Below are positions 19,803 to 35,454 of a DNA stretch of 64,000 bases, piece after piece. Location: NCBI RefSeq assembly GCF_001011155.1, contig NZ_CP011479.1:3552501-3616500 (forward strand), written 5' to 3'. The DNA comes from Hoeflea sp. IMCC20628 (GTDB lineage Bacteria > Pseudomonadota > Alphaproteobacteria > Rhizobiales > Rhizobiaceae). The notes beneath the pieces are model-generated. The model was given only the letters and a program-made list of their open reading frames with translations. It did not search any database and was not told the DNA's origin. A program made the position numbers and the translations under genes. Position 1 is the stretch's first letter. Each line of letters begins with the position of its first letter.

Positions 19803-19965
19803 ATTATTACCCCGTTCCCTCCGGACTTACAGGTCTGATTCTCACTCCGTGAGTCAATCGTTATCGCTACACCAAAGACGGCGAGAAGATCGACAACATC
19901 ACCGATTGAACGCTGAAGCAGTTCCGGGCGGCTTATGGGAGGAGCGGAACAGAGCCCTTCCCCAA

Positions 19966-19988
19966 CCCCTCCCCACAGGTGGGAGGGG
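19966..19988. repeat. Hairpin downstream of the chemoreceptor gene
   Basis: CCCCTCC and GGAGGGG form the arms of a GC-rich stem (with CCAC/GTGG at the loop side) about 60 bases after the chemoreceptor stop on its strand. There is no T-run, so termination is uncertain. The rest of 19803-20051 shows no gene. Confidence 0.4.
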
Positions 19989-31586: not shown

Positions 31587-32073
31587 GTGTGCGCGATTCA
31601 GGGTCGCCACCCCAATTTGGCTCGAAATTCAATCACATCGGGTAAGCGCTGATCACGTAACGCGTGATTACCTGTGAGAATTGCCGCAAATGACATCACA
31701 AGCTGCCGACGGGATGACATTTCAGGACTTATTTTGCGGCGCAAAAACCCGGATTTCGTCTTTTTCACCAATCAGATGTCGCCGATTGTGAACAGTGCAG
31801 GGCGCACAGCGTTGACGAAAAAGCACCCGGTGACGCGCCGATTCCCCTTTTAACCTATTGATTATGCTAATTTTAAAGAACCTCGTCGCTCAACATGATG
31901 TCGGCATTTCACGCCGGGCGCACGCTCTGTTCACATCCATGTGGCTGGCAAGTCATCTGCGCCAGGCCCATCTTCAGGTCATCGGAACGGCGCGGCCCGA
32001 ACGAAACAAAACTACGGACCGCACGCTCCAAACCAAATCGCAGACGACGCAAACATATTAAAGGAAAAACACC
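31587..32073. other. Intergenic region upstream of the small-protein array
   Basis: Nearly 490 bases without a convincing gene and visibly richer in A and T than its surroundings. It contains an inverted repeat ATCACG-TAACG-CGTGAT at 31652-31668, a possible operator. The bases just before the first small gene give an AAAGGAAAAACACC leader with a ribosome-binding sequence. It should hold the promoter of the array, but I cannot fix the -35 and -10 elements. Confidence 0.5.
31652..31668. promoter_or_regulatory. Inverted repeat, candidate operator
   Basis: Six-base arms ATCACG and CGTGAT around a five-base centre. It lies about 70 bases after the edd terminator and about 400 bases before the first gene of the small-protein array. 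Function is unproven. Confidence 0.35.
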
Positions 32074-32394
32074 ATGAACAAGCTCATCATCGCCCTCGGC
32101 CTGACACTCGCAACAGCCACCGGCGCATTCGCCGATTCCTCCGCACTCGACGCATTTGTGCCGCAAGCTCCGAGCACTTCGACCATTGATTACACTGCAA
32201 CGGCTTCGGTCGGCGACGTCGCAAACGACCAGATCGTCTACAACCGTGCAGGCAATGACGGCTCGCCAACATTCGTAGCTCCGCAGGGCAACGTTGACTA
32301 CACAGCAACCGCATCGATCGGCGGCGGCGTCTCCAACGAGCAGGTCACCTACAACCGCGCCGATAATGACGGCTCGCCGACGTTTGTTCGCTAA
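32074..32394 (+). CDS. Small exported acidic repeat protein, paralogue 1 of 5
   Basis: A 106-residue protein of unknown function. A signal peptide (MNKLIIALGLTLATATGAFA) is followed by a mature chain of 86 residues without cysteine, built of two similar repeats: one from IDYTATASVGDV to YNRAGNDGSPTF and one from VDYTATASIGGG to YNRADNDGSPTF. It is the most divergent of the five paralogues, and its two repeats are more alike than in the others, so it may be closest to the ancestral form. AAAGGA lies ahead of the ATG. Location is expected to be the periplasm or the outside; I recognise no family. Confidence 0.85.
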   Translation: MNKLIIALGLTLATATGAFADSSALDAFVPQAPSTSTIDYTATASVGDVANDQIVYNRAGNDGSPTFVAPQGNVDYTATASIGGGVSNEQVTYNRADNDGSPTFVR

Positions 32395-32489
32395 GACTTG
32401 CCTGATTGCGGGGCCGGCTTTCCTCCCGGCCGGTCCTGCACCCCACCCGATCACAACATCACATTTCATCCCATCAAAGGATCACCATC

Positions 32490-32789
32490 ATGAACAAGCT
32501 CATCATCGCACTCGGCCTCACCCTCGCAACGTCGACCGGCGCATTTGCCGCTTCCACCGCCATGGACGCCTATGACCTGCCTGCCGCACAGGGCACCGCA
32601 CACTACGCTGTCGGCGTTAGCAACGATCTGGTCAGCTATGACCGCGCCGGCAATGACGGCTCGCCAACATTCGTGGCTCCGCAGGGCAACATCGATTACA
32701 CCGCGACGGCTTCGATCGGAGACGTGTCCAACGATCAGGTCATCTATGACCGCGCCGGAAACGACGGTTCGCCGCACTTCGCGCGCTAA
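32490..32789 (+). CDS. Small exported acidic repeat protein, paralogue 2 of 5
   Basis: A 99-residue protein with signal peptide MNKLIIALGLTLATSTGAFA and a mature part ASTAMDAYDLPAAQ, then two repeats that each end in YDRAGNDGSP. The first repeat has degenerated to HYAVGVSNDLVSYDRAGNDGSPTF, while the second keeps IDYTATASIGDVSNDQVIYDRAGNDGSP. It ends in HFAR as in copies 3 and 4. The open frame reaches upstream to 32406, but the signal peptide and AAAGGATCACC before 32490 fix the start. Function unknown. Confidence 0.87.
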   Translation: MNKLIIALGLTLATSTGAFAASTAMDAYDLPAAQGTAHYAVGVSNDLVSYDRAGNDGSPTFVAPQGNIDYTATASIGDVSNDQVIYDRAGNDGSPHFAR

Positions 32790-32977
32790 GACTTGCCTGA
32801 TTGCGGGGCCGGTCTCCTCCCGGCCGGTCCTGCACCCCTCTCCGCCAATCACGCAGCCGTGAACGCGGCACAATGGATCTCCCGGAACCTTTCTCGGGCC
32901 CGGCCATTGTCACCCCGAACGACACAGAAACAGACGCTGTCCTCCCAAGACATGCATTCATTCAAAGGACCTATATT

Positions 32978-33277
32978 ATGAACAAGCTCATTATCGCACT
33001 CGGCCTGACACTCGCAACTTCGACCGGCGCATTTGCCGCTTCCACCGCCATGGACGCCTATGACGTGCCTGCCGCACAGGGTTCAGCCAACTACGCTGTC
33101 GGCGTGTCCAACGACCTGGTCAGCTATGACCGTGCCGGCATGGACGGCTCGCCAAGCTTTGAGGCCCCACAGGGCGGCATCGACTACACAGCAACCGCTT
33201 CTGTCGGTGAAGCATCCAACGAGCAGGTCACCTATGACCGCGCCGGCAACGATGGTTCGCCGCACTTCGCGCGCTAA
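32978..33277 (+). CDS. Small exported acidic repeat protein, paralogue 3 of 5
   Basis: A 99-residue protein almost identical to copy 4 and close to copy 5. Same signal peptide, then ASTAMDAYDVPAAQ and two repeats; the first repeat reads YDRAGMDGSPSFEAPQG, with Met for Asn. The leader ATTCAAAGGACCTATATT before the ATG is shared by copies 3-5 with one base change. It lies 488 bases after the start of copy 2, and that spacing recurs to copies 4 and 5, so copies 2-5 are tandem duplicates of a unit of about 488 bases including the intergenic part. Confidence 0.87.
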   Translation: MNKLIIALGLTLATSTGAFAASTAMDAYDVPAAQGSANYAVGVSNDLVSYDRAGMDGSPSFEAPQGGIDYTATASVGEASNEQVTYDRAGNDGSPHFAR

Positions 33278-33466
33278 GGTTTTCCTGATTGCGGGGCCGG
33301 TTTCCTCCCGGCCGGCCCTGCACCCCTCTCCGCCTGATCACGCAGCCGTGAACGCGGCACAGTGGATCTCCCGGAACCTTTCTCGGGCCCGGCCATTGTC
33401 ACCCCGAACCACACAGAAACAGACGCTGTCCTCCCAAGACATGCATTCATTCAAAGGACCTCTATT

Positions 33467-33766
33467 ATGAACAAGCTCATTATCGCACTCGGCCTGACAC
33501 TCGCAACTTCGACCGGCGCATTTGCCGCTTCCACCGCCATGGACGCCTATGACGTTCCTGCCGCACAGAGTTCAGTCAACTACGCAGTTGGCGTGTCCAA
33601 TGACCTGGTCAGCTATGACCGTGCCGGCAATGACGGTTCGCCAAGCTTTGAAGCCCCACAGGGCGGCATCGACTACACAGCAACCGCTTCGGTCGGTGAA
33701 GCATCCAACGAGCAGGTCACCTATGACCGCGCCGGAAACGATGGTTCGCCGCACTTCGCTCGCTAA
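33467..33766 (+). CDS. Small exported acidic repeat protein, paralogue 4 of 5
   Basis: A 99-residue protein differing from copy 3 only in a few mature residues (SSVNYAV for GSANYAV, and GNDGSP for GMDGSP in the first repeat). The signal peptide and second repeat are unchanged, as expected for a recent duplication or for gene conversion. The mature chain has about 11 acidic and 3 basic residues, so it is strongly acidic. Function unknown. Confidence 0.87.
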   Translation: MNKLIIALGLTLATSTGAFAASTAMDAYDVPAAQSSVNYAVGVSNDLVSYDRAGNDGSPSFEAPQGGIDYTATASVGEASNEQVTYDRAGNDGSPHFAR

Positions 33767-33953
33767 GACTTGCCTGATTGCAGGGCCGGTTTCCTCCCGG
33801 CCGGTCCTGCCCCCCTCTCCGCCAATCACGCAGCCATGAACGCGGCACAGTAATTCCCCGGAACCTTTCCCAGGCCCGGCCATTGTCACCCCGAACGACA
33901 CAGAAACAGACGCTGTCCTCCCAAGACACGCATTCATTCAAAGGACCTCTATT

Positions 33954-34250
33954 ATGAACAAGCTCATTATCGCACTCGGCCTGACACTCGCAACTTCGAC
34001 CGGCGCATTTGCCGCTTCCACCGCCATGGACGCCTATGACGTTCCTGCCGCACAGGGTTCAGCCAACTACGCAATTGGCGTGTCCAACGACCTGGTCAGC
34101 TATGACCGTGCCGGCATGGACGGCTCGCCAAGCTTTGAAGCCCCACAGGGCAGCATCGACTACACAGCAACCGCTTCGGTCGGTGAAGCATCCAACGAGC
34201 AGATCACCTATGACCGCGCCGGAAACGACGGTTCGCCGCGCTACAACTAA
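33954..34250 (+). CDS. Small exported acidic repeat protein, paralogue 5 of 5
   Basis: A 98-residue protein, last of the array. It matches copies 3 and 4 except near the ends: the C-terminus is GSPRYN instead of GSPHFAR. The downstream intergenic repeat seen after copies 2-4 is replaced here by a strong terminator at 34289-34330, so this copy closes the array. Function unknown. Confidence 0.87.
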   Translation: MNKLIIALGLTLATSTGAFAASTAMDAYDVPAAQGSANYAIGVSNDLVSYDRAGMDGSPSFEAPQGSIDYTATASVGEASNEQITYDRAGNDGSPRYN

Positions 34251-34288
34251 GCCCTCCCAAGGCTCGGGGCATGTCCCCAAACTCCCGC

Positions 34289-34330
34289 AAAGGCGGGACC
34301 GGTGCCTCCTCCAGGCCGGTCCCGCCTTTT
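34289..34330 (+). terminator. Intrinsic terminator at the end of the small-protein array
   Basis: A perfect 14-base stem, AAAGGCGGGACCGG (34289-34302) with CCGGTCCCGCCTTT (34316-34329), followed by T and GC. It has A-rich and T-rich ends on both strands, so it probably terminates both the array and the convergent aglK transcript. Confidence 0.92.
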
Positions 34331-34365
34331 GCTTGTCTGGAGCATCGCGTGACGCACAGGGCGCC

Positions 34366-35454
34366 TCAGGTGCGGTAGGTGTTTCCGTCCGCGTCAAACA
34401 GATGCAGCTTGGCCTTGTCTGCGGTGAAGCGCAGCCTGTCACCGCGTTTGACCGGCTGGTGGCCGGGCATCTTGGCGATGATCGGGTCGCTTTCGGTCAG
34501 GTCTTCGACATAGAGCAGCGTCACCTCCCCCAGCGCCTCGACAACAGATACCGTTCCCTCAAACAGGAAGTCGTCGCCGGTGGTGGCCAACAGGTCTTCG
34601 GGCCTGACGCCAAAGGAGGCTTTCTTGCCCTTGTCGCTGTCGGGAACAGAGATACCGGTGTCGACCGACTTGTCGCCCGAAAACGAGATGACGGCGCTGG
34701 CCCCGGCCTTTTCGATGATGCCGGGAATGATGTTCATGGCCGGCGAGCCGATGAACTGGGCGACGAACAGGTTCTTCGGCCGGTCATAGAGCTCCATCGG
34801 CGGGCCGACCTGCTCGAGATAACCACCGGCCAGCACCACGATCCTGTCGGCCAGCGTCATCGCCTCGACCTGGTCGTGGGTGACATAGATCATCGTGGTA
34901 TCAGGCATGGATTCATTGAGCTTGGCGATCTCGAGCCGGGTGGCGACGCGCAGCGCCGCGTCGAGATTGGACAAGGGCTCATCAAACAGGAACACTTTTG
35001 GGTCGCGGCAAATAGCCCTGCCGATGGCAACGCGCTGGCGCTGGCCGCCCGAGAGCGCCTTGGGCAACCGGTCGAGAAAGGGACCCAGCTGCAGGATGTC
35101 GGCTGCGGCGCGCACCCTTCGGTCAATCTCCTCGGTGGTCTCGCGGGCGATGCGCATGCCGAAGGCCATGTTGTCGTAGACCGTCATGTGCGGATAGAGC
35201 GCATAGGACTGGAACACCATGGCAATGCCGCGCTTGGAGGGCGGCACGTCGTTGACCACCATGCCATCGATTTCCAGCGTGCCGGCGGAAATCTCCTCCA
35301 GCCCGGCAATCATCCTGAGCAGCGTGGACTTGCCGCAGCCGGACGGGCCGACAAAGACGATGAATTCGCCCTGGGCAATTTCCAGGTCGACGCCGTGAAG
35401 CACTTCGACAGCGCCGTAGGACTTCTTGAGGCCCTTCAATTTCAAGCCGGCCAT
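34366..35454 (-). CDS. aglK: Alpha-glucoside ABC transporter ATP-binding protein AglK
   Basis: A 362-residue ATPase of the MalK/UgpC type, powering uptake through AglF and AglG. It has Walker A GPSGCGKST (about residues 37-45), Q-loop MVFQSYALYPHMTV, signature LSGGQRQRVAIGRA, Walker B VFLFDEPLSNLD and VTHDQVEAM, then a C-terminal TOBE/regulatory part ending near TADKAKLHLFDADGNTYRT. The start at 35454 has GGGAGGAAA just upstream. It is the last gene of aglE-F-G-A-K. Confidence 0.92.
   Translation of the reverse strand: MAGLKLKGLKKSYGAVEVLHGVDLEIAQGEFIVFVGPSGCGKSTLLRMIAGLEEISAGTLEIDGMVVNDVPPSKRGIAMVFQSYALYPHMTVYDNMAFGMRIARETTEEIDRRVRAAADILQLGPFLDRLPKALSGGQRQRVAIGRAICRDPKVFLFDEPLSNLDAALRVATRLEIAKLNESMPDTTMIYVTHDQVEAMTLADRIVVLAGGYLEQVGPPMELYDRPKNLFVAQFIGSPAMNIIPGIIEKAGASAVISFSGDKSVDTGISVPDSDKGKKASFGVRPEDLLATTGDDFLFEGTVSVVEALGEVTLLYVEDLTESDPIIAKMPGHQPVKRGDRLRFTADKAKLHLFDADGNTYRT

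Follow-up and report, generated by a model that had tools for sequence, protein, structure and literature searches.

Tandem genes for an undescribed, predicted exported protein in Hoeflea, each followed by a hairpin with an anti-Shine-Dalgarno loop

Why a bacterium should retain five near-identical copies of a small gene side by side is the question raised by a locus of Hoeflea sp. IMCC20628, considered here within a window of 64,000 nucleotides (the whole stretch of DNA that was analysed, C1:3552501-3616500 of a 5.12-Mb genome of three contigs). As had been proposed in an earlier note on this DNA, an ORF check confirmed five tandem plus-strand genes, each also recovered by copy search, for predicted exported proteins of 98-106 residues, namely gene 1 (32074..32394, 106 aa), gene 2 (32490..32789, 99 aa), gene 3 (32978..33277, 99 aa), gene 4 (33467..33766, 99 aa) and gene 5 (33954..34250, 98 aa), the repeat unit of copies 2-5 measuring 487-489 nt. 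Their signal peptides, described as nearly identical, differ at a single position among residues 1-20, and the mature parts are indeed acidic and free of cysteine (pI 4.05-4.08, net charge about -7 to -8), each comprising an imperfect internal repeat with the cores G[IV]DYTATAS and YDRAGNDGSPxF. The mature protein is probably disordered, AlphaFold2 having returned a mean pLDDT of 54.5 and a pTM of 0.17, values that a shallow alignment could also give. The span considered in the earlier note, 32074..34250, corresponds to the genes; the promoter-like region (from about 31932) and the last hairpin (34289-34329) fall outside it, and that note mentioned neither the three further arrays, nor the common promoter-like region, nor the anti-Shine-Dalgarno hairpins that follow each gene. 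Judged from sequence, the array consists of tandem copies of an undescribed exported protein together with an array-specific RNA element.

Within the array, dN/dS amounts to 0.04 for the signal peptide and 0.32 for the mature part (10 pairs), and a mature value of about 0.3 is also obtained between species of one protein type. Codon adaptation averages 0.71 over the 14 copies of the genome (mechanically called ORFs), the three copies of slot D (see below) scoring lower at 0.62-0.66; a ribosomal-protein region spans 0.59-0.82 (16 ORFs, which also set the weights), and the 47 other ORFs of the window have a median of 0.61, with 42 of them below the array-copy mean. From the purifying selection and the ribosomal-like codon usage, the array proteins look real and well expressed, and since such selection is combined with 14 intact copies in one genome, chance ORFs are excluded. 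It had been suggested that amplification reflects selection either for high dosage or for variation at the surface; the former fits the codon adaptation, whereas selection for variation inside the array is unsupported, because mature dN/dS is about 0.3.

The 14 copies are distributed over four arrays: slot A, the window array, with five copies between EDD-type dehydratase and MalK-type ATPase genes; slot B, with three beside mfd; slot C, with three between ABC-2 transporter and Peptidase_C93 (BTLCP) genes, its placement across genomes resting on the anchors ABC2b, BTLCP and sulfatase-like; and slot D, with three on a 123-kb contig, next to genes for a cupredoxin and CusF (the neighbours of slots A, C and D are named after Pfam). 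A role in copper, considered in view of the slot D neighbours, was dropped because slots A-C have different ones. The slots are syntenic between species, and a block of 1345 bp on the plus strand of the window (31919..33263) recurs without gaps at the mfd locus of slot B with 99.1% identity, from which it appears that array DNA is carried, or converted, from one locus to another. At a threshold of E 0.001, 17 of the 18 genus genomes and one of 43 others gave matches to the array protein, five of the 17 giving a short or weak match because the mature part differs. A wider search found matches, several of them weak, in 20 of 297 genomes of the taxonomic family, and at class level (289 genomes) the own genome alone matched, so that the array family extends over the genus and a few neighbouring genera. 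Comparison of copy number between related strains, which the earlier note had recommended, gave 1 to 7 copies at slot A across species, the numbers being lower bounds wherever a draft assembly is broken within an array (several matches lie at contig ends). Three observations concern individual copies: the last copy of the slot D array at L052 (8222-8503) has an altered C-terminus, AISPRAL as against GSPTFAR in its neighbours; the slot A array of G017 (L058 8002-10953) contains a block of about 2.2 kb that is repeated; and two slot A genes of that genome have near-identical copies at another chromosomal place (L056).

The impression that the protein belongs to no recognised family survived the profile searches, no match over the cut-off being obtained in Pfam (five window proteins and 49 members) or NCBIfam (five window proteins). 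PHROGs yielded nothing convincing for four proteins, a PDB profile search with the array protein reached a best E of 0.046 with weaker values for the rest, and neither the array protein in the viral contigs searched nor the slot D protein in the plasmids searched was found; among the matches listed in the open-licence literature, there was no description of the array or of an association between protein and hairpin. The nearest candidate is DUF680 (PF05079), for which gene 1 scores 17.9 bits, under the gathering score of 24, and which reaches a best E of 0.005 in one of 49 members, the other 48 giving nothing at E 0.01; the DUF680 profile had no match at E 0.01 over 18 genomes of the genus. 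Comparison of the mature parts by hhalign scored above all 200 column-shuffled controls, and the profile-profile probability was about 15%, over 14-15 columns. DUF680 proteins resemble the array proteins in being short, exported and likewise encoded in tandem, in other genera of the same taxonomic family, and in having a VDxxxTxSI-like motif in common with them; they differ in that the seven DUF680 loci scanned were found to be without CCUCC hairpins. Homology between the two is thus suggestive only. Further genera have tandem genes for short exported proteins at loci L082, L083, L091 and L085, comprising DUF680 arrays and an array of GDYYxG type; a VDxxxTxSI-like motif is shared, and a single superfamily is possible.

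Behind every one of the five array genes of the window stands a GC-rich hairpin whose loop contains CCUCC, an anti-Shine-Dalgarno motif. Hairpin 1 (32407..32440) has the loop UUCCUCCC, hairpin 2 (32802..32834) the full CUCCUCCC in its loop region, and hairpins 3 (33290..33322) and 4 (33780..33810) the loop UCCUCCC, all four on the plus strand and identified by hairpin scan, covariation and covariance model. The fifth (34289..34329, plus strand; hairpin scan and covariance model) carries CCUCCUCC in its loop and a short U run, and it is named here the terminal hairpin because a terminator scan did not flag it. Neighbouring hairpins are separated by about 400-490 nt, genes lying in between, and folding gave a modest z of -2.1 in the first internal region and a better one, -3.3, in the terminal region. 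When at least eight pairs and CCTCC in a loop no longer than 14 nt are demanded, the window contains five such places, one per array gene, and none among the 66 CCTCC occurrences outside 32001-34400; allowing loops of up to 16 nt adds one weak hairpin (19956-19988). When the five regions behind the genes were dinucleotide-shuffled 1000 times, the mean was 0.067 and the maximum 2, five never being reached.

A test that made no use of the motif took the best hairpin within 95 nt after each gene. At slots A and B, 30 of the 42 distinct cases had CCTCC in the loop of that hairpin (A 25/37, B 5/5, two of the latter being weak hairpins), as compared with 5 of 581 mechanically called ORF ends (Fisher p 3e-36, the cases not being independent). 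Five identical downstream regions were dropped beforehand, and window copies 1 and 2, being identical to slot B copies, were counted as B. The same test gave 0 of 19 at slot C, 0 of 5 at slot D, where three loops read UUCUCCC, and 1 of 8 at other loci. By a stricter rule that includes the motif, 34 of 78 listed array genes qualify, a further 41 hairpins lying elsewhere in 547 kb, two of which also stand behind array genes outside the gene list. The full CUCCUCCC occurs in 7 of these 34 hairpins and, within the window, in copy 2 only. An alignment of 27 of the 31 distinct hairpins from several species (four weaker ones, two of L054, that of L060 and one of L063, being omitted and a few ends trimmed) was picked by motif, so that loop conservation is partly due to selection; in its stems pairing holds for 97.5% of cells, double changes are seen at 10 of 15 pairs, and none of 500 shuffles reaches its covariation score.

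A covariance model, R1, found nine matches of E 2e-6 or better in the own genome, all of them in arrays (five in A, two in B, two in D and none in C), and the next stood at E 0.225. Over 37 genomes, with, as in the own genome, at most 150 of up to several thousand first-look candidates per genome scored, every match below 1e-5 lay at an array, in 13 of the 18 genus genomes, no array hairpins being found by it in G003, G005, G006, G008 and G014; weaker matches (1.6e-5 to 0.01) occur outside known arrays in G004, G006, G008, G012, G019, G038, G049 and G050. In genus g123, a hairpin with a CCUCCCC loop stands 27 nt after the last gene of a divergent array (L126 795-829).

The motif is likewise frequent when whole intercistronic regions are considered. 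These were taken from 45 of 48 neighbour pairs (three being omitted by a rule on length and N), 42 of them distinct; sense CCTCC is present in 33 of the 35 distinct regions of slots A-C and in 34 of all 42, mononucleotide shuffles giving a mean of 12 and a maximum of 21. In addition, a 16-nt element, GCTGTCCTCCCAAGAC, was found by motif search on the plus strand before gene 3 (32936..32951), gene 4 (33425..33440) and gene 5 (33912..33927), about 42 nt upstream of the internal start codons, where folding is no better than in shuffles. Its 14-nt core has six places in the own genome, all within arrays, and was found in three of the 11 genus relatives searched; an exact core, TGTCCTCCCAAGAC, lies outside known arrays at G005:C34:39742-39755.

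Upstream of the first gene, a promoter-like pair CTGGCA-N17-CCATCT (31945..31973, plus strand) was recognised by motif comparison, and a palindrome, CACATCCATGTG (31932..31943, plus strand, letters checked), a possible operator, stands just 5' of the -35-like box. It is called promoter-like because a sigma-70 scan found no plus-strand site. A TTNGCA-N17-CCATNT-like pair precedes every one of the 22 first genes, in slots A to C and in L056, whose array starts inside a contig; of these, 15 have a CACA-N2..5-TGTG palindrome, which always starts 13 nt before the -35-like box. The pair was looked for and not found in slot D (0/2) and in G008 (0/3). The first genes of slots A-C also have a conserved block TGTGAAC-GCTG more than 200 nt before the ATG, upstream of the pair. 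Presence of the 34-nt promoter pattern in the arrays follows by construction, the pattern having been derived from them, and its absence elsewhere is the result: in the own genome the exact pattern has three places, which are the three chromosomal arrays, and with one mismatch two further places elsewhere. This array-specific common signature makes the chromosomal arrays, slots A-C, look co-regulated by a dedicated factor. The pair has an RpoH-like look. The strings CCATAT, CTTGAA and CTATAT are absent from the main text of PMC3616915.

Hairpins of this appearance are familiar from another setting. Alphaproteobacterial anti-Shine-Dalgarno hairpin RNAs have been described as compact small RNAs, notably adjoining DUF1127 genes; the cuckoo and CcsR types are defined as stress-induced, processed by RNase E and silencing mRNAs. 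It has been described that SmelA075/SmelA099 and NfeR1 are marked by anti-Shine-Dalgarno loops on variable stems (PMC3927594, PMC10746234), that NfeR1 carries CCUCCUCCC loops with which mRNAs are silenced at the ribosome-binding site (PMC10746234, PMC3927594), that ccaF1 of Rhodobacter is cotranscribed with CcsR1-4 (PMC10253847), and that CcsR RNAs, cotranscribed with a small-protein gene, are processed by RNase E (PMC10253847, PMC8625941, PMC7866481). The likeness to CcsR1-4 lies in a small-protein gene followed by several homologous CCUCCUCCC-motif RNAs in one transcript (Rfam RF02791 title; PMC10253847) and in the alignment of the terminal hairpin with the CcsR1 model; the differences are that the array protein is predicted to be exported and of no established family, ccaF1 being a DUF1127 gene, and that the array hairpins are interleaved one per gene, the CcsR RNAs clustered after one. 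With the alpha-r14/NfeR1 or 'cuckoo' RNAs (PMC10746234, PMC3927594), the array shares a kept anti-Shine-Dalgarno loop, variable stems and several hairpins per locus, but those are compact small RNAs with CCUCCUCCC in each loop, and the array loops mostly read UCCUCCC with genes between them. A conserved loop on variable, covarying stems is found in the array too (in motif-picked hairpins, with the motif-free check alongside), the window counting five CCUCC-loop hairpins of which one has the full CUCCUCCC; unlike cuckoo CIN1, the window array adjoins the dehydratase and ATPase genes instead of DUF1127.

As regards formal assignment, the Rfam CcsR1 model (RF02791) matches 34261-34330 with E 0.0076 and 23.8 bits against a gathering threshold of 65.3, and since the same stretch weakly matches a miRNA model (E 0.078), weak Rfam scores there mean little. 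Eight related loci had no Rfam match at threshold, no CcsR1 match above threshold occurred among the candidates scored over 21 genomes, and weak CcsR1 matches appeared also in 4 of 14 unrelated control genomes. Because both the CcsR1 threshold and the DUF1127 neighbourhood fail, the array hairpins are not filed as members of these families; they look like a looser version of anti-Shine-Dalgarno RNAs, one per gene. Cuckoo-type loci proper were found in relatives (L177, L179, L181 and L184, about 1480-1600), where DUF1127 genes, by Pfam, are followed by three CCUCCUCCC-loop hairpins, L177 and L181 folding with z about -8. In such loci the last of the three hairpins has a U run; L178 is one on the minus strand, and L180 (1482-1620) has four CCUCCUCCC motifs, no DUF1127 gene being found there by motif. 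In the own genome a cuckoo locus was not found, and the best CcsR1 match outside the array is of another type.

Since the hairpin tips are like those of gene-silencing small RNAs, the array may make regulatory RNA besides protein. The explanation that we prefer, tentatively and at slightly less than an even chance, is that the arrays are co-regulated operons whose products are an exported protein and, besides it, anti-Shine-Dalgarno hairpin RNAs. One array-specific promoter would transcribe the five near-identical genes, the product would be an abundant, exported, probably disordered acidic protein, and after each cistron the mRNA would fold a stable hairpin displaying a CCUCC(C) loop. By analogy with Rhodobacter ccaF1-CcsR1-4, these hairpins would probably be excised by RNase E, or be active while still on the mRNA, their loops pairing with ribosome-binding sites of target mRNAs. 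As there is one hairpin per gene, amplification would multiply protein dose and hairpin dose together. We consider it doubtful, if conceivable, that this amounts to a distinct type of dual-output operon, in which tandem exported-protein genes, each with its own anti-Shine-Dalgarno small RNA, lie in dispersed arrays under one dedicated regulator, copy number setting both doses in a joint envelope or stress response.

A real possibility, if not a probable one, is that the hairpins act purely in cis, as 3'-end processing or stability elements or partial terminators which protect the cistrons and raise protein yield, CCUCC having been passed on through gene conversion or retained because of a local use, for instance to insulate the following ribosome-binding site or keep it sequestered. 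A strong hairpin does stand behind nearly all genes of slots A-D, with or without CCUCC (two slot A genes are exceptions), it begins 9-16 nt past the stop codon in 26 of 34 motif-picked cases, and the codon usage agrees with high protein output; moreover, in a FastTree tree (six genomes left out, no support values) copies from one array of one genome often cluster together, as expected of gene conversion. However, stem sequence has been widely turned over between species with CCUCC kept (in the motif-selected set and also by the motif-free check), CCTCC in the intercistronic regions is biased 48 to 1 towards the sense strand, and slot C keeps CCUCC outside hairpin loops, its regions containing the 16-nt element in 9 of 10 cases.

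It is improbable that the array simply raises the dosage of a periplasmic or secreted protein and that the intercistronic DNA represents decayed, functionless copies of a terminator. The similarity of the terminal hairpin to the internal ones (repeat family D7), the range of 1 to 7 copies at one locus and the ribosomal-like codon adaptation would agree with it, but decayed terminators are unlikely to hold paired stems through compensatory change, and the motif in 33 of 35 regions would be unexpected of them. That the proteins are variable surface or secreted antigens, recombination shuffling mature parts behind a fixed signal peptide, is very improbable: slot A genes of five genomes (G002, G007, G009, G011 and G013) do keep the signal peptide with a largely different mature part in which mainly GxDYTATAS is retained, pN between the long and short types is 0.53 for the mature part (on an uncertain alignment) and 0.06 for the signal peptide, which marks the latter as the most constrained part, and an array block is found at two loci with 99% identity, but dN/dS of the mature part stands at about 0.3, whether within the array or between one-type species, a repeat search gave weak inverted repeats and no obvious switch, and the protein is predicted to be disordered.

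If the combined output of protein and anti-Shine-Dalgarno hairpins is borne out, such loops would be known from a second kind of locus, an unrelated array of exported-protein genes, and this could explain why so many near-identical copies of such small genes are retained.
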